64,000 nt of DNA, from the NCBI RefSeq assembly GCF_900176145.1, contig NZ_FWWY01000002.1, positions 124,001 through 188,000 on the forward strand, read 5' to 3'. Every line of letters starts with the position of its first letter. Positions within the stretch are counted from its first letter, which is position 1. A program made the translations under genes and the position numbers. The stretch comes from Sulfobacillus thermosulfidooxidans DSM 9293 (GTDB lineage: Bacteria; Bacillota; Sulfobacillia; Sulfobacillales; Sulfobacillaceae). Shown piece by piece: positions 25,797-42,261 of this stretch. Under the pieces are notes generated by a model, which was not told the origin of the DNA, made no database searches, and saw only the letters and a program-made list of their open reading frames with translations.

Positions 25797-26741
25797 TTAC
25801 GACCCGTTGCCAATGCCGACGGGTACGGGACAATTGGTCGGATCGTAGACGCCAAACGGCGCGGAACAATTGGTCGTACCGCTATTAAAGGTGAGGCAGT
25901 ATTCGGCTTCGCGATAACCGGGTTCATTGGGCATACAGTGGTCAAGATAGACTTCCGTTTGTTGGCATTGCGTCGACGAGGATTGCGTCGAACTATACGA
26001 ATAGCTGGAGGTGGAACAGGATGTATGCGGGGTCGGTCCCGGACAGGAATAGGAGGTCGTGCAATGGCGTGTATAGGCCGTCGTGATACCCGTTTCCACG
26101 CCGGTAGACGTACAGCCACTACTCGTGCATGATCCGGCACACCCGGTGGGAGAAAATGAGGATCCCGCAGGACTGCTGGATGACGTGGGGGCGGGGGCTG
26201 TACAGCTTGTTGTGGTGGCCGTATTCGTAGGTTGTGCAGAGGAACTTGGAGCGACACAACTCACCGTTTGCGTGTTGAGTAAGGCTCCTGTTGTTGGATT
26301 CCAGGTATATTCGAGCTGGGAACCGTTTTGGCACGCACTAAATGTCCATTGTTGGTGTGTTCCTGCACATTGGGCTGCGGTGCCGGTACAGCCGGGGTGT
26401 CCTTGACAGACGCCATCACCACCGATTTGATATTCTCCTGCAGGACACGATTGTACACAGCCACTGGTGTTATTACCTAAATACGCCACGACTTCCCCGG
26501 AAGCAGCACAACTATTATACGTATATTGACCGGATTTTTGACTGGATGACGAAAAACCCGGAGTTGTTTGCGCAATGGTATTGGTAAAGGCTCCCCCGAT
26601 TTGCCAGGTGGTTGAGGGAGTCAGAGAGGTTGACGTGTATTGAGTGCCCGTATTGTTCCATCCCGCCGCATAAACCGGAGAAGATATGAGAGCGATTCCC
26701 AAAAACGCAGCAATAGGAAGGCCGCGTTTGTAGTGTTTCAT
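25797..26741 (-). CDS. Secreted Cys/Ser/Thr-rich protein, 314 aa
   Basis: Signal peptide MKHYKRGLPIAAFLGIALIS ending in PVYA-AG, predicted cleavage near residue 26. The mature part has about 30 Cys in patterns such as CPAGEYQIGGDGVCQGHPGC and HCTTSYSCPGPTPHTSC, mixed with Ser/Thr-rich linkers. It is likely disulfide-bonded or metal-rich and exported across the membrane. ATG 26741 (39 codons into the longer frame) follows AAGGAGGGCAATCGTC. It overlaps the stop of 26738-27658 by four bases. Similar Cys-rich sequence is found in the tail of the chimeric gene at 31641-32795. Likely a pilus-associated surface protein (inference). Confidence 0.75.
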   Translation of the reverse strand: MKHYKRGLPIAAFLGIALISSPVYAAGWNNTGTQYTSTSLTPSTTWQIGGAFTNTIAQTTPGFSSSSQKSGQYTYNSCAASGEVVAYLGNNTSGCVQSCPAGEYQIGGDGVCQGHPGCTGTAAQCAGTHQQWTFSACQNGSQLEYTWNPTTGALLNTQTVSCVAPSSSAQPTNTATTTSCTAPAPTSSSSPAGSSFSPTGCAGSCTSSGCTSTGVETGITTAYTRHCTTSYSCPGPTPHTSCSTSSYSYSSTQSSSTQCQQTEVYLDHCMPNEPGYREAEYCLTFNSGTTNCSAPFGVYDPTNCPVPVGIGNGS

Positions 26742-27658
26742 GACGATTGCCCTCCTTGCGGTGCCGCAAATGTCGGGGGTATTTGAAGTGGATAATGGGG
26801 AAATAACGTGGAGGCGATGGTCCATTGTCCCTGCGTCTGTGCAGGCTGAACCCATTCTAAAATGATTTCCCCATTGACGGTTTGAGTATAGGGAGCATGG
26901 TGACCGACTTGAATTTGACGTGTAACCGTTACGGGCACCAATATTTGTCCCTTGACGGGAGGGATAGCATTATGCGAACGCAAAATAATCGGCCGGAAGC
27001 TAAAAGGGAACGCATGAATGTTACCGGTATCTAAAGTAATGGTTCCACGAAGAACGTGCATATGCTGTTGAACCACGTGTTGTTGAGTCAAAGCCCAAGC
27101 CGATCCCCAGGATGTGGGCTGAGTTGAAGGAGGTGGCGGACCGAGGACTGACCACACCATCGTAGGATGATTGCCTAAAGCCCATCGAGTAGCCCATATG
27201 GCGTCAATTAATCCGTTATATAAATCGCGGGAGGTCATCGGGGGGATGTCCCGAAATTGATGCAGAAGTGTAACCCCGTGAAGATGCCAAAATGACTGAA
27301 GATTCGTCACCGTCCAGGATGCTGAAACGGAAGAAGGGACGATGTGTTGTGCGCTAAGCCAATGAGTACCATATTGGGAGACTTGAGACTCGGCTGCTAG
27401 AAGAGGCGCAAAGGCTGTATTGCGAGGAATTTGCCATGCAGGCAAAGAGGATACAGAACGGTTAGAAGAGGGGGTAGGACGAGATGCTGCTGTCGTATTG
27501 GATAACCCTGCGGCATGATGGGGTGTTGTGTGAAGGGTTGTCACGGCATGTAAAGAATCGAGAGACGTATGGGACCGGTGCCATAGAATCACACTGATGA
27601 CAGCGCCTAATACCAGAACAGCAACAATCGTTAAAGTGAGACGGGCCCGATAAACCAT
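26738..27658 (-). CDS. Membrane-anchored extracytoplasmic protein, 306 aa
   Basis: Not recognised. The N-terminus MVYRARLTLTIVAVLVLGAV, ISVILW is one membrane anchor, then a Ser/Thr/Pro linker and a mainly beta extracellular domain with phrases such as GQILVPVTVTRQIQV and VNGEIILEWVQPAQTQGQWTI. The latter recalls the outer domains of TadE-like proteins of this locus (compare AGQVIVPLNLITFF in 31028-31627). ATG 27658 follows GGAGGTGTTTCTT. It is coupled with the Cys-rich secreted gene. Likely a structural or assembly component of the surface apparatus. Confidence 0.7.
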   Translation of the reverse strand: MVYRARLTLTIVAVLVLGAVISVILWHRSHTSLDSLHAVTTLHTTPHHAAGLSNTTAASRPTPSSNRSVSSLPAWQIPRNTAFAPLLAAESQVSQYGTHWLSAQHIVPSSVSASWTVTNLQSFWHLHGVTLLHQFRDIPPMTSRDLYNGLIDAIWATRWALGNHPTMVWSVLGPPPPSTQPTSWGSAWALTQQHVVQQHMHVLRGTITLDTGNIHAFPFSFRPIILRSHNAIPPVKGQILVPVTVTRQIQVGHHAPYTQTVNGEIILEWVQPAQTQGQWTIASTLFPHYPLQIPPTFAAPQGGQSS

Positions 27659-29799: not shown

Positions 29800-30243
29800 T
29801 CATCCGGTGAATGTGTGGCTCACCAGGTAAAGACACCACACCCCCCAGTAGCCGACGAGCCACGGCCAGGATGAGGGCACGGGGCGTCGGATGAGCCACA
29901 GCGCCGCACTAACGACAATCTGCACCCCAAAGGCGGCGACAATCAACCACAAGCCCATCAGCCACGCATTATGCATCCACAGCATGGTCAAACTGGCGAT
30001 CCAATAATCCGCCAGTCCCCAAATGACGACACCGGGATGCCGTCGGGTGCGCCACCCCACATAACTGGCGGCAAATCCGCCCGTTAAGGCCGCTGCGAAC
30101 CATCCCGCCGGATCTATCCACGGCGGATGCTCGATGAGCGTCAGGGCGGTGGCCAACAGGAGCGTCGACCAGGCCACGCTGCGCGTGCGCCAATCCGCCC
30201 ACGCGACGCCCGTGAGCAAGCCCGTCCAAAGGAGATTGTTCAT
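29800..30243 (-). CDS. tadV: Prepilin peptidase, TadV/CpaA-like, 147 aa
   Basis: Aspartic membrane protease that cleaves prepilin leaders. The two expected Asp are present: GVAWADWRTRSVAWST near residue 15 (the usual DxRxR after the first helix) and VIWGLADYWIA near 75, a variant of GxGD with Ala for the second Gly. Four to five membrane spans. ATG 30243 overlaps the CpaB stop by four bases, which supports this start; the longer frame is rejected. It sits at the end of the Tad pilus operon, as expected for its role in maturing the pilin candidates at 35979-36227 and the pseudopilins. Confidence 0.75.
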   Translation of the reverse strand: MNNLLWTGLLTGVAWADWRTRSVAWSTLLLATALTLIEHPPWIDPAGWFAAALTGGFAASYVGWRTRRHPGVVIWGLADYWIASLTMLWMHNAWLMGLWLIVAAFGVQIVVSAALWLIRRPVPSSWPWLVGYWGVWCLYLVSHTFTG

Positions 30244-30992
30244 CCCGATGATTTCTTGCTCGATGAGGGCTTCGTTGAGCTGGAGGCGGAGGACGTCGCT
30301 GAGGAGGGGGTTGTCGTCGGTGGGGATACCACTAAGTGAAAGGTGGTTTGATAGGGATCTTGAACGAGCGTGGGATTGGCGATGGTCATCAGCAGCGATA
30401 AATCCTGATCCGGGACGGCTAAACTGACCATGCCAATGGCGGTTTGATTGTTCGATAAGGGCGTGCCCGAACTGGAATAGATGCCAATCACGCGAACTCC
30501 TGTGGCCCATAAATGGGCAAAGCCGGTGGAGGCGCTTTGACTCCCTTGGGGCGTACTTTGGGGGTCAGACCAGACTTGCACACGATCCCCCACTTGGACC
30601 AGCCCACTGCTGACCCCACTGACGGGAATGGTCCACACGGCTTGCCCGGGTTTCAACCCGCGAAAGGCGACCGGGGTGGTAAAGTCGTTTTGTAAGAGAG
30701 GCGTTCCGGGGGCTAACGCGGTTTTGGCGACCATGCCGGTAGGGACGGTCGAAAACGCGCCAGGCCACCCCGTCAAGGTCTTGATCGTGGTCACGTTTTG
30801 GCTGGTGACCGTTTGCCCGGCTGTTAAGGGCGTTTTTAACACCCACACGGTATGCAGATGCGGCGGAATCGTGAGTTGATGGGCCAGCCCCACTAAGGCC
30901 AATCCGCCGAGAAACCCGCCCGCGATTTTCAGTGTTTTCGTGGCCGCGCGGCGGGACGTTTGAGAAACCGATGACGAAGCGAGAGCAGCCAT
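30240..30992 (-). CDS. cpaB: Flp pilus assembly protein CpaB/RcpC-like, 250 aa
   Basis: One N-terminal span (IAGGFLGGLALVGLAHQLT), then a SAF domain: LTAGQTVTSQNVTTIKTLTG, GMVAKTALAPGTPLLQNDFT, and the following RcpC-type strand GLKPGQAVWTIPVSGVSSGL, VQVGDRVQVW. Ends in a Ser/Thr/Lys-rich tail. In Tad systems CpaB is a periplasmic or cell-wall-facing assembly protein. ATG 30992 (MAALASSSVSQ) follows AAGGAGGTTGTGCG; the much longer open frame to 31586 is a shadow of the upstream gene. Coupled to the prepilin peptidase. Confidence 0.85.
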   Translation of the reverse strand: MAALASSSVSQTSRRAATKTLKIAGGFLGGLALVGLAHQLTIPPHLHTVWVLKTPLTAGQTVTSQNVTTIKTLTGWPGAFSTVPTGMVAKTALAPGTPLLQNDFTTPVAFRGLKPGQAVWTIPVSGVSSGLVQVGDRVQVWSDPQSTPQGSQSASTGFAHLWATGVRVIGIYSSSGTPLSNNQTAIGMVSLAVPDQDLSLLMTIANPTLVQDPYQTTFHLVVSPPTTTPSSATSSASSSTKPSSSKKSSG

Positions 30993-31027
30993 CGCACAAC
31001 CTCCTTGGTTAAATGATGAGTATAGGG

Positions 31028-31627
31028 TTAAGACTGAAACGACACGATTGTATGGGGATTCGTCCGTCCCGCTAAAGGCAGAACGAAAGATTCCGACATC
31101 GTGGTGGTCCAATGCCAATGAAAAAAGGTGATGAGATTGAGCGGCACGATCACTTGCCCGGCAATGACAGGATAGGGATAGGTCACGGTTTGATGGTTCA
31201 AGGTAATGGGCTGGTTGGGCGCGGACGTGGTTTGTAACTGCTGAATCACGATGGGACCGCTCAGATGCCACACGGCATTGGCCGTTGCCGGCAGCGTCCA
31301 GGTGACACGTTGAGCGGTGGTGGTCGTAGTACTGCCGGGAATTGTGTGTTGGAAGGTGGTGCTGAGCACCGCCGGTAAGGCACTGGATTCGAGCGACACA
31401 CTCTGTCCATTCCAGCCGACATTGTAATAGGCGCCATTTTGGGTTGTCGGGGTAATGGCCGCTTGTTCGAGTCCGGCGGTTAAGGCGGTATTGATCGTGG
31501 ATTGCTCGGCATGAATTTGGCTGACGAACAAATAGACCGTGATGACCAATAAGAGCAAGAGCAGCATTTCGATCGAAAACAGCCACGTGGCAATCGCGGG
31601 AACCCGTTTCGGGTGCTGAGCAGTCAT
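31028..31627 (-). CDS. TadE-like membrane-anchored pseudopilin, 199 aa
   Basis: N-terminal basic stretch and one long span (IEMLLLLLLVITVYLFVSQI), followed by a helical and then beta-rich extracellular domain, the general shape of TadE/TadG-like minor pilins. The Glu at the start of the hydrophobic helix (SIEMLLLL) is the kind of residue used in pilin assembly. ATG 31627. Ends close to CpaB and starts 14 bases from the stop of the chimeric TadG-like gene. Assignment rests on architecture and neighbours, not on a sequence signature. Confidence 0.6.
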   Translation of the reverse strand: MTAQHPKRVPAIATWLFSIEMLLLLLLVITVYLFVSQIHAEQSTINTALTAGLEQAAITPTTQNGAYYNVGWNGQSVSLESSALPAVLSTTFQHTIPGSTTTTTAQRVTWTLPATANAVWHLSGPIVIQQLQTTSAPNQPITLNHQTVTYPYPVIAGQVIVPLNLITFFHWHWTTTMSESFVLPLAGRTNPHTIVSFQS

Positions 31628-31640
31628 CAGAGCACGCTCC

Positions 31641-32795
31641 TTATGAGCACTGTTGAACCGTTTCGGGGACTTGTTCGGTATGGGCCGGAACGGTCGTGCA
31701 AGCGGTCGTGGTTACATCATGGCAGGATTCGGTCGTTGTTGTTTGCCAATGCCCCGTCGTGACCGGATGGCAACTGTAGGTCGTGACCGGCGAATAGCCA
31801 CACACATCGGTCGTGGAACAAGACTCGGATGTTTGGGTGGTACAGGAATCGGAATGTGTGGTAATACAATATCCCCACGGCGTATAGGTCCCTCCGGACC
31901 ATGACCCACACTGTTCGCCCCATATGGGTGTGCAGACTTCGCTCGTTACCGGAGTACAGCGTTGTACGGGATGACACGTATATTCGTCCTGCGTGGTATA
32001 ACCACATTGTTCCGTGCTTGACGTCACCCACGTCTTCTGCGTCGACGGGGAACAGACCGCTGTGGTTTGTGGTTGGCAGGATGTGGTCGCCGGAATGTCT
32101 TTCGTGACATAAATCGTCGCTGTGCTACAGGTAGAAATGGTGGATGCCGTCGCCAGACTGAGGGTGGGGGTGGTGCATTGGCTGTTGCTTTGCGCTGTGT
32201 TGCTGCCGAACGCTACATATTGGGACGGTTGTTCCACCGTACTCGTCAGCGGCACGGACGTTGGCAATTGGAGATGCACCACACTAATGGGCACGGCCCA
32301 GTGCAGTTGGGCGGTGACCACTTGCCCATAGGGGGTGGTCTCGCCTTGGGGATCGCTATATTGCGTCACTTGGACGGCATGTGCGCCAGAAATCGGCAAC
32401 CCGCCTCCTTGTACTAACCGGATATACGTGATGTCAATTCCCCAGACGTGATTGGGGTACGCCGGCGTGACACCGTTCAATAAATACGGGTACACCGGGT
32501 GCTGGGGATGGCGGGTGCTCGTTTGGGGACCCGGTGCGATCCCCCAAATGCCCATCTCCCGCATGAAACGCTGCACGCGTTTACGGTTCACGGCGTAACC
32601 TTCCTGGTTCAACTGAGCCGTCATCCGTCGGGATCCGTAAAACGGTCGATCGGTGTAAATTTCATCGATGCGATGCTTCAGCGCGATCTCCTCGGCATCC
32701 GGCCCGACGGGCCGGTAATAGAGGCTCGAGCGGTTGAGGCTTAACAACGCGGCTTGCGTCGTCAACGGCAGGGTATCCGCTTCCCGATCCAGCAA
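31641..32795 (-). pseudogene. Chimera: IS3 transposase OrfB N-terminus fused in frame to a second TadG-like gene with a Cys-rich tail
   Basis: Residues 1-127 are IS3-type OrfB (PFYGSRRMTAQLNQEGYAVN, then NHVWGIDITYIRL with the first catalytic Asp). At about 32414 it switches in frame to a region that matches the intact TadG-like gene upstream (GGGLPISGAHAVQVTQYSDP to PSQYVAFGS, about 61 of 71 residues identical by eye). From about 32195 it becomes a unique Cys-rich tail with repeated C-x-P-V-T-x-x-x-C spacing. The TadG anchor part is missing, so export is unlikely unless recombined. It is best read as a TadG paralogue whose 5' end was lost to an IS3 insertion and deletion. Confidence 0.8.
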
Positions 32796-33164
32796 GGTGA
32801 TCCGTTCATCGCGGGTCAGGGTTGAGGCCAGATTTTTTTTTGAGCCACTCGACCTGGGTGGTCAGTTTGCCGATTTCCGCATAGAGTGCGGTCAATTGTT
32901 CCTCATGGGCTTGAGCTTGCTGTTTGAGCGCCTGCGATTCCGCAAACAGCTGCGGGAAATTGTCCAGGGCCTGGCGTTTCCAGCGATGCAATTGACTGGG
33001 ATGAATGCCGTATTCGGCAGCAATCTGGCTGACGGTTTTTTCTTCCTTGAGCATTTCGAGCACTACTTGGCTTTTGAAAGTGGCAGAATGCCGTTTTTGT
33101 TTCGACATGATATGTCCAGTGTAACACTTGACGGCCTCCAAAATTGTCTAGTTTTTGGGGACCA
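32414..33164 (-). mobile_element. Truncated IS3-family element
   Basis: The left end is at 33164, reading TGGTCCCCAAAAACTAGACA on the minus strand. orfA and the first 127 codons of orfB follow, then the element stops abruptly at 32414 in TadG-like sequence. The right inverted repeat and two of three catalytic residues are absent, so it cannot move by itself. Confidence 0.8.
32806..33105 (-). CDS. IS3-family OrfA (HTH subunit)
   Basis: Transposase DNA-binding part: MSKQKRHSATFKSQVVLEML, then the helix-turn-helix TVSQIAAEYGIHPSQLHRWK and a leucine-zipper-like coiled coil to QVEWLKKKSG. Start at ATG 33105, the ORF upstream being noncoding. A run of nine A on the coding strand (32833-32841) just before the stop is a classic -1 slippage site that would join it to orfB. 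The downstream orfB is truncated and chimeric. Confidence 0.85.
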   Translation of the reverse strand, partial: SKQKRHSATFKSQVVLEMLKEEKTVSQIAAEYGIHPSQLHRWKRQALDNFPQLFAESQALKQQAQAHEEQLTALYAEIGKLTTQVEWLKKKSGLNPDPR

Positions 33165-33233
33165 CTATATAACGTAGCTACTCCAGCTACACGTCGTGAC
33201 CGGAGTGACAAGACCATGCTCCTACGTCACCTC

Positions 33234-34469
33234 CTAGGGAATGAGGGCACTGGCAACTGGTGTAGTTGATGAGGTGATGTGTTCGCCGTTAGGCAACAGA
33301 TATAGCATCCAAGTTTCACCCGGAGTTAATCCGTTAGCGGGTTGAAAAATTAGCTGATTAGTCGTTGAGGATAGGACGGTAATGCCCCAATCGGGCGAAT
33401 ATGGATAATTGGGATTGCCATCAGCCATTCCGTGATCTGCCCACAGAAAATTCGTGTAATCGACACCATAAGGCGCTAACGTTCCGTTAGTAAGAAGAGG
33501 CAAATGCATACCGATGACAGTGACGGTATTCGTATTGGGATCGGCAACAATGTGAGTGACGACAGGCTTTGCTGTGGTACTCGACGAAGAGCCGTTGGAC
33601 GGCACAGGTTGAGAGAAGGTCGCTGTTTGGCCGCCTACTGTCACCATCACGTTTAAGGTACCGCCATTGAGGGGATCAGGTCCAATCACCGACCAATTAC
33701 CCGGGTACTCGACGACAATCGTTGTCGGACTCCATGACAGGTATTGCAGTCCGGCGGCATTGGGATTGTTTCTGTGATTGTAGTAACCAAAATGCCACTG
33801 GCCATAGCTGAGTTCCACATGATTTGTGTCTTGGCCGCCCCATGGAGCCGTGTATAACGATGGCATATGGTTGCCAAATCCGCTGCCAGTAATCGTAATC
33901 AGCGCACTATATTGACCAGTGGGCACAATTTGAACGCTGTTAATGGCTAACATATTGACGCTCGGAATAACGGACGAACTTCCGGGATGTGCTAAATCAG
34001 GCGTTGTACAGGTGGAATTCGTGGTATTATTTTGAGATCCGAATGCCACATATTGGGAAGGTTGATCGACGTTACTGGACAGCGTAACCGACGTGGGCAA
34101 TTGCAACCGCACCACACTAATGGGCACTGCCCATTGCAGTTTGGCCGTCACCACTTGCCCGTACGGGGTGGTATCGCCTTGGGGATCGCTGTATTGCGTC
34201 ACTTGGACGGCATGCGCGCCAGAAATCGGCAGGCCCCCGCCTTGCAGAATGTGACTCACAATTTGCGACGTTTGGGCGGTCCAACAGCCATTTTGGGCTT
34301 CGGACACGGCGGCCGCATGCGCGGCGGCATCTAAGGTTTGCTGAACGTGCCACAATCGGCTGGCCGCAATGCCCCCCGTGACGCCCATAAAAATTAAAAT
34401 CAGCCCGAGAACCGAACCAATGGTGCCCGCTGCAGCAGGAAGACGCGGCAGCGGTCGACGTAAGACCAT
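33234..34469 (-). CDS. TadG-like minor pilin with an IPT/TIG-like tail, 411 aa
   Basis: The N-terminus has a hydrophobic segment (GTIGSVLGLILIFMGVTGGI) followed by the amphipathic AASRLWHVQQTLDAAAHAAA typical of TadE/TadG proteins (LDAAA.AAA). Then a domain from about residue 75 to 145 is shared with the chimeric gene at 31641. The C-terminal half (VNMLAINSVQIVPTGQYSAL, ITITGSGFGNHMP, VTVGGQTATFS) looks like an IPT/TIG immunoglobulin-like fold. Probably displayed at the pilus tip or surface. ATG 34469 (MVLRRPLP) is chosen because AGGAGG is ten bases upstream. Confidence 0.75.
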   Translation of the reverse strand: MVLRRPLPRLPAAAGTIGSVLGLILIFMGVTGGIAASRLWHVQQTLDAAAHAAAVSEAQNGCWTAQTSQIVSHILQGGGLPISGAHAVQVTQYSDPQGDTTPYGQVVTAKLQWAVPISVVRLQLPTSVTLSSNVDQPSQYVAFGSQNNTTNSTCTTPDLAHPGSSSVIPSVNMLAINSVQIVPTGQYSALITITGSGFGNHMPSLYTAPWGGQDTNHVELSYGQWHFGYYNHRNNPNAAGLQYLSWSPTTIVVEYPGNWSVIGPDPLNGGTLNVMVTVGGQTATFSQPVPSNGSSSSTTAKPVVTHIVADPNTNTVTVIGMHLPLLTNGTLAPYGVDYTNFLWADHGMADGNPNYPYSPDWGITVLSSTTNQLIFQPANGLTPGETWMLYLLPNGEHITSSTTPVASALIP

Positions 34470-34673
34470 AGATGGCATTCCTCCTAATTTTCAAATTGTA
34501 GCTTGGTCACAACAAGATGTTGGGATTTTAACCGCATTTCAACCTCAATAACGCTATGAAAATACTTTCTCCACGGCTTTAAACCCGACCGTGACTAGCT
34601 CTACCCGTTGAGTAACCCTTACTGACAGATAAGAGAATGGTGGTCATCAGTTTCAACAGCAGATGACAAACAC

Positions 34674-34704
34674 AAGACGCTCCCCAAAGGTGGGAAGCGT
34701 CTTG
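34674..34704 (-). terminator. Terminator of the secreted Ser-rich gene
   Basis: Stem AAGACGCT(C)CCC/GGG(A)AGCGTCTT with a 6-base loop and a modest T-rich tail on the minus strand (CTTGTGTTTGTC). It sits just past the stop at 34729. The 34470-34673 interval holds the leader of the TadG-like gene and no visible gene. Confidence 0.7.
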
Positions 34705-34728
34705 TCCTCAGATGTTTTCGACCGGATT

Positions 34729-35511
34729 CTATGAGGAGCTGGTTGCTGGGCTTGGACTCATGGCGGCACTGGGACTAGTTGATGACGTCCCGGCGCTCAA
34801 ACTTGCCGTTAACGACTGAACTTGCGTTGTCGCTTGCGTTAAGGCCGTCAATTCGGCTTGAAACATGGCAATAACTTGGGAGAGGGCCTGAGAGCTTGCG
34901 TGAGAACCGACAGATGCCGACGCACTTTGAGCCGTTTTCTCGCTTTTGACCGTTTGCGCCAGGGTCGTGTTAATGGTATGGAGTTGGGTTAAGGCTGTTT
35001 GAATGGACGTCTGGCCTCCCGCTAAGTCTCCTGACAACACCTTAACATACGCTCCAATGGCTGCCACGTAATTTTGGCGTGCGCTTCGAATTTTATCTTG
35101 TAGCGTCCGCATTTCTTTAACATCGGCAAGCACGGCTTGAGACGCTCCTCGCTGTGGGGACGACATAGCAGCATGGTGTTGAGCCTGACTCGGCAGCGAT
35201 GTCGCTTGACTGGGTAGAGAGGACGCTTGACTGGGTCGATTTGACGAAGGCGGCGATCCTTGTCCATGCGAGGACGGCGGCGAAGACCGTGAGGAATCAT
35301 TAGACGGTGTCGATGAATCGTGGCTTCCGGGTACTCCGGATGGGCTTGAGGACGGCATGTTGCTATGGCTAGACATTGTCGACGCCGTTTGGGAAGGCGC
35401 ACCATAAGACGTGTGAGTCGGACTATTTCTGGAACTATGACCCGCAGCCATCGCCGGTACGGTGGCGATTAGCGATACCGCCAAGGCCGCGGCTAAAGGA
35501 GTAATTTTCAT
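34729..35511 (-). CDS. Secreted Ser/Pro/Gln-rich coiled-coil protein, 260 aa
   Basis: Signal peptide MKITPLAAALAVSLIATVPA ending MAA. Then about 95 residues of low-complexity Ser/Pro/His (PSQASSLPSQATSLPSQAQ, tandem PSQA repeats), and a helical region with ADVKEMRTLQDKIRSARQNY and TSIQTALTQLHTINTTLAQT, predicted to be coiled coil. Ends in Ser/Thr/Pro. ATG 35511 is preferred over a GTG three codons earlier because of GGGGTGAGATTT. Exported; may be a cell-wall-spanning or pilus-anchoring protein. It follows a small lipoprotein by six bases, so both are in one transcript. Confidence 0.75.
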   Translation of the reverse strand: MKITPLAAALAVSLIATVPAMAAGHSSRNSPTHTSYGAPSQTASTMSSHSNMPSSSPSGVPGSHDSSTPSNDSSRSSPPSSHGQGSPPSSNRPSQASSLPSQATSLPSQAQHHAAMSSPQRGASQAVLADVKEMRTLQDKIRSARQNYVAAIGAYVKVLSGDLAGGQTSIQTALTQLHTINTTLAQTVKSEKTAQSASASVGSHASSQALSQVIAMFQAELTALTQATTQVQSLTASLSAGTSSTSPSAAMSPSPATSSS

Positions 35512-35526
35512 AAATCTCACCCCAAC

Positions 35527-35817
35527 TTAAGGATTTTGTAACTGCTCAAGCAACTGATTTAGTTGATTCACCGCACTCTGTAATTTTTCGGATTCTGTTG
35601 CGGGCACTGCATGAGATGTCGAAAGCCGCACGGTTAAATGACCTTGTGTCTTTTGTACCACAATATGTACCGCATGCTGTTCTCCAGACACCTGGGCAGA
35701 AGGTACTTTAGGGGCTTGTGTGGCGGGGTGCGCCTGGCTACTGAAGGCGGAACCACATCCACTCACGATGAGGGACAACACCATCATGCCGCCCCCCAAC
35801 CACTTGAATCGCACCAT
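35527..35817 (-). CDS. Small lipoprotein, 96 aa
   Basis: Signal sequence MVRFKWLGGGMMVLSLIVSG with lipobox IVSGCGS (Cys near residue 21), then a Gln/Ala/Pro linker and one beta-alpha unit ending in a coiled helix (SEKLQSAVNQLNQLLEQLQ). Attached to the outer face of the membrane. ATG 35817 follows GAGGAGATAGCGT. It is preceded 14 bases upstream by a 15-codon leader frame with its own strong ribosome site and followed by the Ser-rich secreted gene. Candidate pilotin or anchor for the pilus; function not established. Confidence 0.75.
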   Translation of the reverse strand: MVRFKWLGGGMMVLSLIVSGCGSAFSSQAHPATQAPKVPSAQVSGEQHAVHIVVQKTQGHLTVRLSTSHAVPATESEKLQSAVNQLNQLLEQLQNP

Positions 35818-35831
35818 ACGCTATCTCCTCA

Positions 35832-35879
35832 TCATCTATTTGAAGCATCTTGCTCGTAGGTGACGTAATTCGACAGCAT
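35832..35879 (-). CDS. Leader peptide candidate, 15 aa
   Basis: ATG 35879 follows a strong AAAGGAGAGTCGATA. The frame reads MLSNYVTYEQDASNR and stops 14 bases before the lipoprotein start. Such a well-initiated mini-frame may couple or attenuate translation of the lipoprotein. No regulatory codon run is seen, so it could also be a relic. Confidence 0.35.
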   Translation of the reverse strand: MLSNYVTYEQDASNR

Positions 35880-35936
35880 TATCGACTCTCCTTTTTTTAA
35901 TGCCAGGTTTTTGACGCCTCTCTTGCTCAGCGTAGA

Positions 35937-35974
35937 AGCGCCCTACGGCATCGTCTCCGATCCCGTAGGGCGCG
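35937..35974 (-). terminator. Terminator after the pilin candidate
   Basis: Stem GCGCCCTACGG/CCGTAGGGCGC (11 bp) with a 14-base loop; on the minus strand followed by TTCTAC. It lies immediately downstream of the small pilin-like gene, a place where a strong stem often lets pilin mRNA accumulate. Confidence 0.75.
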
Positions 35975-35978
35975 TGTA

Positions 35979-36227
35979 TTAATCGGTAAATTGGGTGACA
36001 CTGTTGAGAATGTTGTGGAACCAGGTCGACCCTGCTCCGCCGTTGCCAAAGAAGGCGTAGGCGACTAAGCCGAGCACGACAATAATGACCGCCCAGATAA
36101 TTTCTTGCAAGTGGCCCGAAATGGCTGGCACCCGGCGGCGGGTTGGCGTCAGAAAGCGGATGCGGAGCCACATGAAATAGGTTGACAAGATCTGAGAAAG
36201 TGCACGAACACGAAGACGATTGGTCAT
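35979..36227 (-). CDS. Small pilin-like protein (Flp-type candidate), 82 aa
   Basis: Basic leader of about 40 residues, then PAISGHLQEIIWAVIIVVLG, LVAYAFFG, a hydrophobic helix with a Glu five residues after a Ser-Gly boundary, as in type IV and Flp pilins processed by a prepilin peptidase. The short mature part (about 40 residues) suits Flp pilins. ATG 36227 follows AAGGAGGAAACCAACCC. A strong terminator follows, and it heads a segment beginning the pilus operon. Cleavage site and pilin role are inferred. Confidence 0.6.
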   Translation of the reverse strand: MTNRLRVRALSQILSTYFMWLRIRFLTPTRRRVPAISGHLQEIIWAVIIVVLGLVAYAFFGNGGAGSTWFHNILNSVTQFTD

Positions 36228-36339
36228 GGGTTGGTTTCCTCCTTGATGGTATGGTGTGAATGGTGAAGAACAGACGGTGATCGGATGCGCTGCAAAAGAC
36301 GGGGGCATCCCGACTCCGCCAAAAATGAGGTCTCACGGA

Positions 36340-36993
36340 TTAATTCCCTCCTTTATCGGGCGAAACACAGCGCGCAGGCACGGCCCACGTGACCCACGTG
36401 GCCGGATCGCGGCGATCTTTGGTCGACACCACGCCGCCAAACATCCGGCGTTGGGTGGCCCGCATAATCCACGGGGGATACCGGCGTAAGAGACGCGGCC
36501 ATAAGGGACCCTCCCAAATGCGACCGCCCGCGGCTTCAATAGCCTGCTGTTCCGCGGGCGTCAACCGATTAAAGCCCGAACTCATCAGGGCCACGGTATC
36601 GGGCCGAGTCTGAATCACCTGAATGACTTCCGTGGCATACGTCTGGCGATACCGGCGCGCCGCCTGATGCGGATCCGGCGCGTGCCATCGTCGGGCATCT
36701 TGGGCATGAACTTCCCACACAGAGGGGCCCAAGGATACCGAATCGGGCAATTGCCGCTGAAGCCACTGTGGCGGCGCCGGCGTCCACCAAATCGCGCGGG
36801 TCTGATACCGGGTCGCAATCCAAGCCGGCCAACTCAAGAAAAACAGCGAGGGCCAGACGGCGAGGAATACGAACCCCGCGCCGACGCGCGGATGATGGCT
36901 GAGAAAGCTGAGGGTAGCGAGGCCCAACGCTAGTCTCCGTCCGAGAGGTTCCCAGCGCACCATCCAAAATAAGGACGTTCCATAGCGCCACAT
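36340..36993 (-). CDS. Hypothetical membrane protein of the Tad locus, 217 aa
   Basis: Not recognised. One or two N-terminal spans (LGLATLSFLSHHPRVGAGFV, FLAVWPSLFFLSWPAWIAT) and then a soluble, Arg/Trp-rich domain of about 150 residues. It lies 23 bases downstream of tadC and upstream of the pilin candidate on the same strand, so it is probably part of the assembly operon. ATG 36993 follows GGAGGATTAGGAC. It may be an assembly-platform accessory; no family evidence. Confidence 0.65.
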   Translation of the reverse strand: MWRYGTSLFWMVRWEPLGRRLALGLATLSFLSHHPRVGAGFVFLAVWPSLFFLSWPAWIATRYQTRAIWWTPAPPQWLQRQLPDSVSLGPSVWEVHAQDARRWHAPDPHQAARRYRQTYATEVIQVIQTRPDTVALMSSGFNRLTPAEQQAIEAAGGRIWEGPLWPRLLRRYPPWIMRATQRRMFGGVVSTKDRRDPATWVTWAVPARCVSPDKGGN

Positions 36994-37016
36994 GTCCTAA
37001 TCCTCCAGCAACGGGG

Positions 37017-37847
37017 TCATAACACGGTGATCCCCGACGTGGATCCCGTCCCATGCGCAAAAAAGGTAAACATGACCATGAGCATAATGCCCAGCATGAC
37101 CAGAGCGGGAACGACCGTAATTTGTTGGTCGACGCGATCCGCGAGAGCCCGAGCGCCTTGTTGCTGTTGAGCTGAAATGAGCGTATGCAACGGCTTTAAG
37201 GCGGCGCCCGAGATGCCCCGTTCCAAATGGTGACTTAAGGTATCCGCTAACTGTTGATAGGGCAGGAGTTTCAACCGCGCCGCCCACTGTTGCACAATGG
37301 CCGCCGGCGTCCCGGTTTGTTGGTGCCAGGCGGCCAAGAGCCGTTGTAATTCTTTTTCGGTGGGCGGGCCAACCGCAATCAAGGCATCTTCCACCGCGCG
37401 TTCCGGGGAATACCCGAGATCGAAATACACACTGAGCATGAGCACGAGGGGCACGAAATCCCGCAAGAGCTCTTGTTGCCACGCGAGAAAATTCCGGTGA
37501 ATCCACAATTGGGGTCCCCACCACGCCCCGAAGAGGGCTGCCATCAACGCGAACAGCCGATGATGGGTGACAATATCGGTGGGGAGGCCCACAAAGGCGG
37601 CAAAGAAGAGGACCCAAAAGGCGGTTTGTCCGGTCGACCAACCTAAAATGGCGAGTTCGTCCCGCACCCGGCGGCTCCAACGATTTTGCGTCCAGCGCAC
37701 GAGGGCGTGTTGCCAGCGCTGCCAACGGGTGTCTTCCGGGGTAAAGGTTAACGGGCGGGGCTGGACCCACAATTGCCGCCAACTCCACAACCATAACAGG
37801 ACGCCGCCGCCGGCGGCAATCCAGGGCATCGAACCATTCAGCTTCAT
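37017..37847 (-). CDS. tadC: TadC-like assembly-platform protein (T2SSF family), 276 aa
   Basis: Inner-membrane platform protein of Tad pilus systems, which works with TadB and the TadA ATPase. Features: an N-terminal span, a helical cytoplasmic domain with LVLMLSVYFDLGYSPERAVE (T2SSF motif with G..P..A) and HHLERGISGAALKPLHTLIS, and a final span LVMLGIMLMVMFTFFAHG. The layout matches the T2SSF fold in the TadC position. ATG 37847 has GAGGAGGGG just before it. It is 11 bases from tadB. Confidence 0.85.
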   Translation of the reverse strand: MKLNGSMPWIAAGGGVLLWLWSWRQLWVQPRPLTFTPEDTRWQRWQHALVRWTQNRWSRRVRDELAILGWSTGQTAFWVLFFAAFVGLPTDIVTHHRLFALMAALFGAWWGPQLWIHRNFLAWQQELLRDFVPLVLMLSVYFDLGYSPERAVEDALIAVGPPTEKELQRLLAAWHQQTGTPAAIVQQWAARLKLLPYQQLADTLSHHLERGISGAALKPLHTLISAQQQQGARALADRVDQQITVVPALVMLGIMLMVMFTFFAHGTGSTSGITVL

Positions 37848-37858
37848 CCCCTCCTCGT

Positions 37859-38776
37859 CTACACTTGTTCTGCCGTGCGTTCCGCTTGGCGTTGAACCCA
37901 GGTGCCGAAGGCAATCAACCAGGTCGAGATCCCAAACACAATCAAACCCAGACCATGACGGGCATCATGCACCACCGCCGGGCTATTAAACCAGAGTCCG
38001 GCTAAAAAGAGGAGACTGCCCACAATCAGCGCTTTGGATAACCAGGTGCCGGCATGAATTTGACCACGGCGGCGCGCATCCGCTTCCATGCGTTGGCTCC
38101 ATAGATGCAAGACGGTCGCCAGGAGATCTGCGGTGCGCCCGCGTTGACGCTCCGCGGCTAACACGTCCGCGACGAGTTGCAGTTCAATATGCCGAATCGC
38201 CCGCGCTTGAATTTTTAATTCCGCTTCAAACGGGAGCAATGGCGTCGTGGGCAACGGCCGCCCGTCGGCGGGTCTGTGACGGCGGCCCGTGGCTTCTTGA
38301 CTCAAACACGGTTCCAAAAAGCGGTGCAAGACATCCTCATTGTGCGCGTACAAATTTTCCCATACGGGCAATACAGGCCGATGATCGTCCAGGGCAAAGC
38401 GAATGCTGGTGCACGCACTCAAGGCTTGCTGGTCGAGCCGTTGCCATTGGCGTCGCGCCCACAGGCGCACCACCCCTTCCGGCCAGCCCCACGCAATCAG
38501 GACAAATGCACTGCCCATCAAGGGATTGCGCGTGATGCCTGTCACGAGCAGCCCCACGAGGACTCCACTCACAGCATTGAATCGGCGGAGTTGCTCAGGA
38601 GACCAGGGGAGGCCGGTGAGGGCGATCCAGGACGCATTTAAGGTCGGCGGCACGCGCCACGTAATCGGTTTCGCTTGCCAAGTCAGCGGCACGGGCACAG
38701 TGCGCCATTGCCAAATGCTGAAGACCACCAGACCTAAGCCGCCGATGGCCAACAACCACGCGAGAACGCTCATCAT
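37859..38776 (-). CDS. tadB: TadB-like assembly-platform protein, 305 aa
   Basis: Membrane protein with N-terminal spans (VLAWLLAIGGLGLVVFSIWQ, VSGVLVGLLVTGIT), a central cytoplasmic helical region (ELKIQARAIRHIELQLVADV, LAAERQRGRTADLLATVLHL) and two C-terminal spans (LSKALIVGSLLFLAGLW, LGLIVFGISTWLIAFG). This is TadB-type topology but with a diverged T2SSF motif. The start ATGATG (38776 or 38773) overlaps the tadA stop, so the two are translationally coupled. Pairs with tadC next door. Confidence 0.75.
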   Translation of the reverse strand: MMSVLAWLLAIGGLGLVVFSIWQWRTVPVPLTWQAKPITWRVPPTLNASWIALTGLPWSPEQLRRFNAVSGVLVGLLVTGITRNPLMGSAFVLIAWGWPEGVVRLWARRQWQRLDQQALSACTSIRFALDDHRPVLPVWENLYAHNEDVLHRFLEPCLSQEATGRRHRPADGRPLPTTPLLPFEAELKIQARAIRHIELQLVADVLAAERQRGRTADLLATVLHLWSQRMEADARRRGQIHAGTWLSKALIVGSLLFLAGLWFNSPAVVHDARHGLGLIVFGISTWLIAFGTWVQRQAERTAEQV

Positions 38777-40104
38777 GCCGCCTCCCAGAGTTGTTGCAAT
38801 TTTCTCGAGGGTTCGCCGACTTTCACGAGGTGTCCGCCCTGGTGGGCAAAGAGAACATGCACCGATCCCTGTTCCGTGGTTTCCACGACATGGCTGACCC
38901 GGCGGGCGCCGGTGGTGGGATCGTGGTGCACATAGACGATCAGATCAATCGCCTGATACACGGTTTGTTGAATGAGATCGCGGGATAACGTCAGACCCGA
39001 TTTTTGGGCAATATAATACAGGCGGCTGACCAGATAATCCGGATGGCGCAAGTGAATCGTGGACAAACTGCCGCCTTTTTCGGTTAAGCCGAGCTCTATG
39101 AAATCGAACGCTTCCGGTCCGCGTAACTCCCCCATAATGAGCCGGCCCGGACTTTGTCGGAGCGCGTTGCGGAACAAGTCGAGGAGCGACACAATGCCGT
39201 GTTCGCGTTCGTCGGGCAAGACCGCGCGGGCTAAGCCAATCAAATTAATTTGATGATGAAAAGGGAGATGCAATTCTTCGGTATCTTCGAGCACAATGAT
39301 CCGCTCGTCCGGGGGAATGGCTTCAATCGCCAAGGCGCGTAAGAGCGCCGTTTTCCCGGATTTTGTCGGCCCCGCAATCAGCCCGTTCGCCCGCGCCCGA
39401 AAAGCCCGCACCAGAAAATGGGCGACTTCTTCAGTCAACATGCCCCGGCGAATGAGTTCCTCCAGTTGTAAGAGCACGCCCATGTTATGTTTCCGAATGG
39501 TGATCGCCGGCCCGGTCATCGCCACCCGGTGATGCGTGATATTGATCCGCGCGCCATTTTCGGGCCAGGTCAAATCCATCAAGGGTTCGGTATCGCGGTA
39601 TTCCCGTTGGCAATGGCGCGCTAAATGTTGCGCGAGACGAATACTCTCGTCGACCGAGGATAAGGTGAGCGCTGGTTCATTGCGCCCATGACGGTCGACA
39701 AAAATATAGGGTCCGGTGACCATAATTTCGGACACGGTGGGATCGCGCATAAAGGGTTCTAACACCCCTGCGCCCAACAATTGGGCTTCTAAGGCATCGG
39801 TCAGTTGGACCGCAATATCTTGCGATGGATGGAGACTGAGCACGACGTCGGCAATCGCTTGCCGCACGGCTTGGCGATCCGCTTGATAGATCCGGGCAAT
39901 CAAGGAGCTGTAGCGATCGCGCAAGAGCAATAACGCCGTGTGAAACAGGGAGGGGGTGGCATCCGCCGTGGAATGATCGTCGATCGGCCGAAAGGGGGAC
40001 GCGGTGCCGGGCGTCCGGGACGCGGTGCCCAAATCTTGGAGGGGATTGGGTTCCGCGGCGGCACCGCCAAAGGTTTGAACCAACGGATTGGCAAAGTGAG
40101 ACAT
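38773..40104 (-). CDS. tadA: TadA/CpaF-type secretion ATPase, 443 aa
   Basis: Hexameric ATPase powering Flp/Tad pilus extension. Motifs: the PilT/CpaF N-domain with LLGAGVLEPFMRDPTVSEIM, VTGP; Walker A GLIAGPTKSGKTALLRAL near residue 245, with Pro-Thr-Lys replacing the common GGTGSGKT; Asp box IIVLEDTEELHLPF near 275; Walker B LIMGELRGPEAFDF near 325; and His box GGSLSTIHLRHP near 345. Length is close to the family norm. ATG 40104 follows AAGGAGCGATGCCCTC. Coupled to tadB. Confidence 0.93.
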   Translation of the reverse strand: MSHFANPLVQTFGGAAAEPNPLQDLGTASRTPGTASPFRPIDDHSTADATPSLFHTALLLLRDRYSSLIARIYQADRQAVRQAIADVVLSLHPSQDIAVQLTDALEAQLLGAGVLEPFMRDPTVSEIMVTGPYIFVDRHGRNEPALTLSSVDESIRLAQHLARHCQREYRDTEPLMDLTWPENGARINITHHRVAMTGPAITIRKHNMGVLLQLEELIRRGMLTEEVAHFLVRAFRARANGLIAGPTKSGKTALLRALAIEAIPPDERIIVLEDTEELHLPFHHQINLIGLARAVLPDEREHGIVSLLDLFRNALRQSPGRLIMGELRGPEAFDFIELGLTEKGGSLSTIHLRHPDYLVSRLYYIAQKSGLTLSRDLIQQTVYQAIDLIVYVHHDPTTGARRVSHVVETTEQGSVHVLFAHQGGHLVKVGEPSRKLQQLWEAA

Positions 40105-40125
40105 GAGGGCATCGCTCCTTCAGGT

Positions 40126-40818
40126 TTAGTGGAACAGCGCTTGCGCTTGGCTGACGGTGACCGCGCCGGGTGTCGTTTGACTCACGACCCCGTGAGAGTT
40201 GAGGACATAGATGGTGGGAAAGCTGGTAATATTCCAGGTTTGTTGCGTGGCGGTTGGCGCGACATACACATGAATGTTGGCGGCGTGCAACCCATAGGTC
40301 TGCACATATTGCCGCATGGTCGCTTGCATTTGGGTCACACTGAGGGGACCGCCGACGCCATCATGTCCATGAAACGGCGGGTTTTGGGGCCCGGGATCGG
40401 CGATCCCGCCTTGGGGAGAGACATCCACGATATCAATCGCCCAATGGGGATGCGCTTTCGCGAGGGTCGGCCACACCCATTTGTCTTCATAGCCACAAAA
40501 GAGACACCACGACGCCATCGCCATGACAATTGTGCCCTGCGAACCCCGCGCTAAATGGGTGGAATGCCCGGTTAACGTCGTTAAGGCCGCGGACCACGGG
40601 GCGGTGTGACCGATCGCCCACGGCCCGGTGCCCGCTGAGGGCGTCGTAGACGGGGTCTTGGGATGAAAGGCCGAGGTCTGCGGCGCCGCCGTCACCGTTT
40701 TTGCGGGGGCTAACCACGCGCCGAGGGTAAAGCCGAGACCCATCCAACCGAGAATCGCGGCGCCCACACCGAGACCCAGCCACCGCCGCGTGGGAGAAGA
40801 GAGTTGTGATAAGACCAT
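40126..40818 (-). CDS. Membrane-anchored thioredoxin-like oxidoreductase, 230 aa
   Basis: The N-terminal span (LGLGVGAAILGWMGLGFTLG) anchors it with the catalytic domain outside. The thioredoxin-like domain begins near residue 70, with the active site TIVMAMASWCLFCGYEDKWV (CxxC, Cys-Leu-Phe-Cys) near 105 and the cis-Pro strand NITSFPTIYVLNSHG near 195. It would form or rearrange disulfides in exported proteins. ATG 40818 is used. It sits inside the pilus operon between TadZ and TadA, which also encodes Cys-rich surface proteins, a likely substrate set (inference). Confidence 0.8.
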   Translation of the reverse strand: MVLSQLSSPTRRWLGLGVGAAILGWMGLGFTLGAWLAPAKTVTAAPQTSAFHPKTPSTTPSAGTGPWAIGHTAPWSAALTTLTGHSTHLARGSQGTIVMAMASWCLFCGYEDKWVWPTLAKAHPHWAIDIVDVSPQGGIADPGPQNPPFHGHDGVGGPLSVTQMQATMRQYVQTYGLHAANIHVYVAPTATQQTWNITSFPTIYVLNSHGVVSQTTPGAVTVSQAQALFH

Positions 40819-40851
40819 GTTCGATACACGCTCCTTCACTCAGAATAGGAC

Positions 40852-42261
40852 TTACGATGAGGCTTGGCGCCGGAACCATCCGCGCCGCGTCGGGCGTTCG
40901 GGCTCCACCTGGGTAATCGCATGAAATAAGGCCCGCCACGGTTTGGGATGATCCAACGCCAGCGGACGATGTTGTTGGAGGGACCGTTCCCAGCGTGCCG
41001 GATCATAGGGAATTTCGCCCAGCAGCGGAACGCCGGGGAGATGGGTCGATCGAATAGCAGCCGTGGAATATCCCCATTTACTGCGCTTATTAATAATCAA
41101 CCCGCGTTTTTCCCGGGGAATTTTCAAGAGATCGAGTTTGCGAATTAAATCAATGGTTTCCAAGATCACGGCATACTCGGGCGTCGTCACAATGACCACG
41201 AAGTCCGCTTGCCGCACACTCTGGATCCAGACGGGATCGGTAGGCACCCCGGGCGTATCCACAAAGACAAAACGAGCTTGACGTTGACACGCGCTCAGAA
41301 TCGCCGACATCACCACCGGCGGCGGCACGGGCATCACCGTTTCAAAACGCGACGCGCCCGGCACAATCTTCGCACTGGGCGTCACCACTTCGGCGTGTTC
41401 GACATACTGCGCAATATCGCGGGTATCATCCTCGGTGAGATTTTCAATCACCACCATGCTGGCCGCGCCCATCGGCGGGCGATGATGGGTTTGAATCTGG
41501 GTCAGCAGGCGCCGGAGATCCAGAGTCGGGGTGTCATTCGCTTCGTGGAAATAGAGCGGCAGACTCGGCTTGATGTAATCCAAGTCTAACGCCATGGCAG
41601 GCCACTGCCCGGTGACGGTGAGCAAATTGGCAATGAGCCCGGTTTTGCCGACCCCGCCTTTGCCACTGACGACGGCGACGGTATAACTCGAAACGACCGA
41701 GGACGCGGAGGCTCCTTCCGAGGGCGAGACGGGGGAAGGAGACGGGGTGGAGGCTGCCGTGGGGAGCGTCATCGTCACTGGCGCATCGAGATAGGGCTGT
41801 ACCGCGTCCCAAGTGAAATCTTGGGTTAAGAGTTCGACAATTTGCGACACGGTAAATTTTTCGCCCACGCGCACATTATAAATTTGGAAGGCGGCACAAT
41901 TGGCAATGAGTTGCCGGGTGTCCTGGGTGAGGCGACTGACAATGACCGCAATCCGCACCATCGGCCACTTTTTCCGGATTGCAATCAAGGTTTCGGCCAG
42001 CGACCGACTCCCGTACAGTTCACTCGTCACCAACAGCGTCGTCCACGGGGCGACGGGTTCCTGGTCCAAGAGATCCCACAAAGCGTCCGTACTATCGGTC
42101 AGAGCGTGTAACGACCACGTCCGATCGGGTTGGGCGGCATGCAGGGCGGTCGGCAACCGATCGAATAATTGAACCCGAAACGGCTCCGACACCGTGCCCA
42201 AGGCTAAGGCGCAGACCGGATCGGTCAGGGCCGGGGGAACAGTTGAGTGAACAGATTCCAT
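40852..42261 (-). CDS. TadZ/CpaE-like ParA-family ATPase, 469 aa
   Basis: Localises Tad pilus machinery to its cell site. N-terminal receiver-like domain (about residues 15-150, with LLVTSELYGSRS in place of the phospho-Asp region) and a MinD/ParA domain: deviant Walker A VAVVSGKGGVGKTGLIANLL near 197, ALDLDYIKPS, Walker B FVFVDTPGVPTDP near 335. A Ser/Pro linker joins the domains. ATG 42261 follows AAAGGAGCCTCCTCAGT. It heads the tadZ-trx-tadABC operon. Plasmid ParA is the alternative, but the neighbours and two-domain form favour TadZ. Confidence 0.88.
   Translation of the reverse strand: MESVHSTVPPALTDPVCALALGTVSEPFRVQLFDRLPTALHAAQPDRTWSLHALTDSTDALWDLLDQEPVAPWTTLLVTSELYGSRSLAETLIAIRKKWPMVRIAVIVSRLTQDTRQLIANCAAFQIYNVRVGEKFTVSQIVELLTQDFTWDAVQPYLDAPVTMTLPTAASTPSPSPVSPSEGASASSVVSSYTVAVVSGKGGVGKTGLIANLLTVTGQWPAMALDLDYIKPSLPLYFHEANDTPTLDLRRLLTQIQTHHRPPMGAASMVVIENLTEDDTRDIAQYVEHAEVVTPSAKIVPGASRFETVMPVPPPVVMSAILSACQRQARFVFVDTPGVPTDPVWIQSVRQADFVVIVTTPEYAVILETIDLIRKLDLLKIPREKRGLIINKRSKWGYSTAAIRSTHLPGVPLLGEIPYDPARWERSLQQHRPLALDHPKPWRALFHAITQVEPERPTRRGWFRRQASS

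Follow-up and report, generated by a model that had tools for sequence, protein, structure and literature searches.

The Tad pilus locus of Sulfobacillus thermosulfidooxidans DSM 9293 contains two tadG-like genes that share a stem but carry different tails, and the second of these is likely an ordinary inactivated copy, produced by duplication, tail replacement and insertion of an IS3-family element accompanied by a deletion. Both genes lie on the minus strand of the 64,000-nucleotide stretch that was analysed (the window), as the first-pass annotation had described, with the intact open reading frame now refined to 33234-34478. That annotation had offered two readings of the pair, and the one in which a paralogue was inactivated by an IS held up; to it we add that it is the ancestral form that was broken and that the IS came with a deletion. 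The arrangement was read in one genome of the species, and genome-wide statements rest on sequence searches of that genome.

The genome consists of two contigs (3.86 Mb), and the window is part of the 248,656-bp contig C2. From ORFs, Pfam matches and relatives we delimited a Tad/Flp pilus operon (29800-42261, minus strand) within a conjugation backbone. The operon encodes a prepilin peptidase-like protein, RcpC/CpaB, TadE, TadG, Flp, TadC/TadB-like proteins, a CpaF ATPase and a CpaE-like protein, the names TadB, TadC and CpaE being assigned from gene position and sequence reading. Flanking it in the window are a ParM/StbA homologue, a VirB4-like ATPase, a VirD4/TraG coupling protein and an SLT transglycosylase, and by this gene content C2 is most likely a conjugative megaplasmid. 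The intact TadE-like minor pilin gene (31028-31627, minus strand) is 82% identical to its orthologue in G006 and 58% identical to that in G007, and the genome search found no second complete tadE. Synteny with G006 and G007 identified the Flp-type pilin gene (35979-36308, minus strand), which in relatives lies immediately 5' of tadG. Here a 1.43-kb block (34486-35919, minus strand) is inserted between flp and tadG. Comparison with the chromosome showed this block to be a 94% copy of a gene pair at C1:2647337-2648770, encoding a lipoprotein-like protein (35527-35817) and a Ser-rich exported protein (34729-35520). With the block came a strong hairpin (34672-34705), which lies upstream of tadG and may reduce read-through. 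A mobile element with defined ends was considered for the block and rejected, since the similarity between the G000 chromosome and G006 extends past those ends into the flanks; it is therefore a captured chromosomal piece.

The intact gene was assigned as a TadG-like minor pilin gene from a TadE Pfam match, alignment with the anchor/stem family, hydropathy and an SD, and it sits in the tad operon together with the genes for Flp, CpaF, TadB/C, RcpC and prepilin peptidase. The likely start is position 34469, the second ATG, which has a better-spaced AGGAGG. The protein of 414 residues comprises an anchor (residues ~17-45), the stem and an IPT/Ig-like tail (residues ~170-414). The anchor matched PF07811 with an E value of 7.5e-4 and 20 bits, under the cut-off of 22.9, and PF13400 weakly; hydropathy peaks at 2.15 near residue 20, as a single hydrophobic anchor following a short N-terminal segment. 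A single-sequence structure prediction was too poor (pLDDT 38) and was not used. The tail had been called IPT/TIG-like, a description that found no direct Pfam support in the window protein (no PF01833 match at E<1) but gained some from a TadG of G011, which barely passes the TIG cut-off (21.1 versus 20.9) over a region that aligns to the window tail with 42% identity, the alignment covering the first half of that tail. The second half (33264-33524) aligns at 48% identity with a domain from another kind of protein, encoded in G001 (L038 2105-3409), and the N-terminal part of that protein has a homologue in the window protein 25797-26855. Over evolution, domains have therefore moved between the surface proteins of Tad-type loci. 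The genome search gave no other IPT tails. A scan of genome contigs returned only S. thermotolerans Kr1, and no relatives turned up in viral contigs, whether the query was the intact protein, the anchor/stem alignment or the Cys-rich part.

The shared stem spans 206 nt on the minus strand, at 34039-34244 in the intact gene and at 32206-32411 in the decapitated gene, a spacing of 1,833 bp. The two copies are 85% identical (E 3.5e-61, far beyond chance). At the protein level 62 of the first 70 residues are identical, in agreement with the ~61 of 71 counted in the first pass, and downstream the IPT-like and Cys-rich tails diverge. Differences are spread across the 206 nt and the longest identical run is only 23 nt, which marks the IPT copy as an old paralogue. 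The second gene is now a chimeric ORF (31641-32795, minus strand, 384 codons) that opens in IS3 OrfB and runs uninterrupted by stops through the stem and the Cys-rich tail. Cys conservation and identity to G006 identify its segment 31641-32409 as the 3' part of an ancestral tadG, with stem and a tail of 17 Cys residues and no anchor, equivalent to the ancestral gene minus its first ~77 codons. The KD maximum of the chimera is 1.22, versus 2.15 for TadG and 2.6 for TadE, and hence it has no strongly hydrophobic segment; a protein lacking a membrane segment is unlikely to enter the pilus, and the chimera is probably a non-functional, dead gene. Thirteen of the 17 Cys residues are conserved in all six Cys-tailed TadG proteins compared, and no Cys shared by both closest relatives has been lost. 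The tail is 68% identical to that of G006, and its identity to G007 (55%, versus 54% for the G006 tail) indicates that it has changed no faster. Given the lack of stops, the retention of every shared Cys and an IS3 divergence that fits purifying selection, the decapitation looks recent.

Relatives provide the ancestral arrangement. In G006, G007 (S. thermotolerans Kr1) and pL15 there is a single tadG encoding anchor, stem and Cys-rich tail, followed directly by tadE, and the tadG genes of G020 and G024 likewise have the anchor, stem and Cys tail architecture. Hence the Cys copy of the window is the ancestral tip gene, beheaded here, and the Cys tail is the old and widespread one. The first-pass annotation had suggested searching for an allele that joins the anchor to the Cys tail; such a gene exists, as the fixed single tadG of other species and plasmids and not as a switched variant. 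The same tad block lies beside transfer genes on pL15 and pY0017, which are conjugative plasmids of S. thermotolerans, and the chromosome of strain Kr1, of the same genus as the window's host, contains an integrated plasmid relative (PMC6803676). The block of pL15, pY0017 and the Kr1 integrated plasmid has the CpaF/TadB/TadC-like, Flp-like, Cys-tailed TadG, TadE and RcpC genes seen here and, as in the window, adjoins ParM and transfer genes, but it has one tadG and no IPT tail. The Cys-tailed tadG of pY0017 (L077 8476-11261) is interrupted within the stem by a reverse transcriptase element of the group II intron type, the pL15 orthologue being whole. What follows a similar anchor varies across the class: the tail is Cys-rich in some proteins and Ig-like in others (G005, G075, G101, G117 and G011), and G001 and G025 have none. 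A distant TadG-like protein in L052 (G130) has a tail of repeated basic/aromatic motifs (KETYQVQVGTRQETKYRE...) that is neither Cys-rich nor Ig-like.

The anchor of the Cys copy was lost together with part of an IS. The IS3-family remnant (32407-33169, minus strand; Pfam HTH_Tnp_1/HTH_21) corresponds to nt 1-763 of a 1,379-nt element; its left end is complete and the right 616 nt are missing. It retains orfA (32806-33141) and the first ~150 codons of the orfB frame, and the OrfB part of the chimera matched HTH_21 with an E value of 9e-19. C2 carries four copies of the element, with 97-99% mutual identity; three are full length (1,379 nt), and there are fragments in addition. The full copies have both ends visible and 3-bp target duplications (GAC/ACC); together with an OrfA HTH, an OrfB HTH_21 in an overlapping frame and terminal inverted repeats, these duplications place the element in the IS3 family. 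The chromosome holds only one fragment, of 80% identity. The remnant is 91% identical to the full copies, and its differences are mostly silent (dN 0.035 and dS 0.28-0.49, a dN/dS of 0.07-0.13), which argues that it came from a sister IS lineage under selection and that long residence at this site is not required. Long decay in place as the source of the 9% divergence was rejected on the same grounds.

Sequence comparison placed the junction between IS and stem at 32407-32411 (minus strand), within ~5 bp of partial microhomology, and the join is in frame. The first pass had the IS3 remnant replace the anchor; a simple replacement it is not, as both the right 616 nt of the IS and the 5' part of the gene are missing. 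The complete left end, the OrfA, the N-terminal part of OrfB and a deletion starting inside the IS are those of IS3-family elements and IS-adjacent deletions, whereas here the right end of the IS was itself removed. Thus, the deletion is not the clean product of one-ended transposase action, and the partial microhomology suggests illegitimate joining.

The left end of the IS cuts a 16-codon ORF start, MVLSLRSRRVAGVATL, that is preceded by an SD (33170-33217, minus strand) and that we tentatively regard as a second tadE start, from N-terminal resemblance and position. Comparison with tadE N-termini gave a shuffle p of ~0.0007, uncorrected for the dozen or so comparisons made, and the ORF begins past the tadG stop with an overlapping SD, much like native tadE; no similarity to tadE was found at the DNA level. 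We also considered whether the peptide marks the 5' end of the Cys-tailed tadG, and rejected this because peptide and DNA scores gave no support, tadE matched better and a Cys-tail piece fitted only marginally. If MVLSLRSRRVAGVATL is a second tadE, then the duplicated unit may have been tadG-tadE and the IS would have landed in that tadE, and the main conclusion is independent of its identity.

From these data we infer the following order of events. An ancestral tadG with anchor, stem and Cys-rich tail would have been duplicated long ago, and the upstream copy would have acquired an IPT/Ig-like tail instead. The space between the copies would later have received an IS3 element, and the right half of this IS would have been lost together with the second anchor in a deletion whose ends lie within the IS and where the second stem begins. 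What is left is an IS3-stem-Cys frame devoid of a membrane segment. The present tip would then be built from the IPT-tailed TadG and the single intact TadE, the IPT tail being the putative exposed contact domain of the plasmid's pilus and the Cys tail the relic of a former one.

An IPT copy acquired horizontally from a close relative would give a similar picture, which weighs against duplication. In the specific form we considered, a tadG with IPT tail, perhaps with its own tadE, came from another Sulfobacillus Tad locus to lie beside the native tadG-tadE, IS3 entered the second tadE, the deletion removed the native anchor, and the tip is formed by the acquired TadG and the native TadE. The IS3 insertion and deletion are common to both accounts, which differ only in the origin of the IPT copy. 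The stems have diverged for a long time, since third-position differences between the window copies (46% over 84 codons) come near the level between species (50-52%), and a relative of the IPT tail occurs in another genus (G011); both fit acquisition, as do the resemblance of MVLSLRSRRVAGVATL to tadE N-termini and its native-like position, although that tadE-like piece is only 16 codons long. The intact anchor is, however, closest to that of G006 (86% identity), as vertical descent predicts, and the stem of the intact copy is closest to that of the native Cys copy. The two window stems are 82% identical in amino acids (84 columns), versus 69-71% for either copy to G006, a pairing that is not strong given that the stem of the Cys copy is 81% identical to G007 and 82% to the IPT copy. 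We consider such an acquisition unlikely, and prefer duplication within the locus.

A point against simple inactivation is that an in-frame and stop-free chimera could mean use. The OrfB-stem-Cys protein might have been domesticated for a new cytoplasmic or regulatory function: the frame is open for 384 codons, the HTH_21 domain was kept, and the A-run that ends IS3 orfA could feed ribosomes into the frame by frameshifting. An in-frame join, however, has a one-in-three chance, and in simulations of 3% neutral divergence the frame remained free of stops in 22% of sequences (P 0.22), so that an open frame needs no selection. Moreover, the conserved Cys residues lie in a domain that is exported in relatives, and the chimera has no membrane segment. 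We regard domestication as extremely improbable and the chimera as the remains of an inactivated tadG.

The other first-pass reading was that of a silent cassette for tail switching, in which the Cys tail would serve as donor and recombine through the stem with the expressed tadG to vary antigenicity or partner specificity. Its appeal is that a common stem is followed by different tails, that the frame of the silent tail is intact, and that a crossover between the stems, repeated in direct orientation at a distance of 1,833 bp, would yield anchor, stem and Cys tail in frame. At 85% identity over 206 nt and with no run exceeding 23 nt, however, the stems contain no near-identity tracts, let alone the complete-identity tract expected following recent conversion, and they bear no mark of recurrent conversion. 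The 3.86-Mb genome yielded just two stems and one silent copy, with no further tadG stems or tail cassettes. No shufflon-type paired inverted repeats surround the tails, and no recombinase was seen near the pair among the window proteins scanned with Pfam, which cover part of the ORFs. Since the stems are direct repeats, a crossover could only delete the intervening 1,833 bp (the IPT tail and the IS), irreversibly, leaving an anchor-stem-Cys gene with no way back, and elsewhere both tail types occur as fixed architectures. The identity of the stems, the length of their identical runs, the copy number and the orientation of the repeats led us to reject switching through the stem, which is highly improbable, and the cassette proposal is unsupported. 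The first pass had held that stop codons accumulating in the silent tail would refute switching; the tail has none, which is uninformative, because a frame that has decayed neutrally by a few percent is often still free of stops. The locus thus gives no evidence for programmed variation. A weaker version, in which the decapitated copy is a standing reserve tail and rare stem recombination deletes the IPT tail and IS to restore an anchor-stem-Cys TadG, is very unlikely; if true, a conjugative plasmid could exchange the tip of its Tad pilus, and with it the contact partner, within a population, but in one direction only.

Inactivation of the older copy following duplication would make the locus a snapshot of a plasmid Tad pilus tip in the course of changing its exposed domain: the gene was duplicated, one copy took a different tail and the old copy was lost. 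Since the Tad pilus belongs to the conjugative backbone, a role of the tail in partner contact is plausible, as in PilV or the Kil tips, and at the tip the tail would face the contact partner, be it a mating cell, other cells or a surface. Conjugative plasmids of acidophilic Firmicutes are a place to ask whether the tail sets the contact partner.

In pilE/pilS antigenic variation of Neisseria, 5'-truncated copies share segments with the expressed gene. The 5'-truncated copy described here likewise shares a segment with the expressed tadG, but it is single, 85% identical and without long identical tracts, and it was truncated by an IS plus a deletion, its Cys tail being the ancestral expressed form. 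Another parallel is the PilV shufflon of IncI1/IncI2 plasmids (R64 and TP114; PMC9045228), which also has a plasmid type IV pilus-family tip with a constant N-terminal part and alternative tails. In IncI plasmids the PilV tail selects recipient cells (PMC9045228), and tails in both systems are plausibly for the choice of contact partner. Unlike the shufflon, the present locus has no shufflase that we could find, no sfx-like inverted repeats, one alternative tail and no evidence of rearrangement. TadEFG have been proposed to lie at the tip of Tad pili, with TadG-type minor pilins as the tip backbone bearing modular C-terminal domains (PMC12075869). The interchangeable Myxococcus KilLMN tips (PMC12075869) resemble the present genes in that a conserved N-terminal anchor is combined with variable, modular C-terminal domains, TadG-type paralogues differ in the domain they expose, and TadE is a neighbour. 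In contrast to KilLMN, the window has two tadG copies in one conjugative-element operon, one of them decapitated, and their tip assembly and function are putative. The locus fits the recent view of TadG-type minor pilins as adaptable tips.
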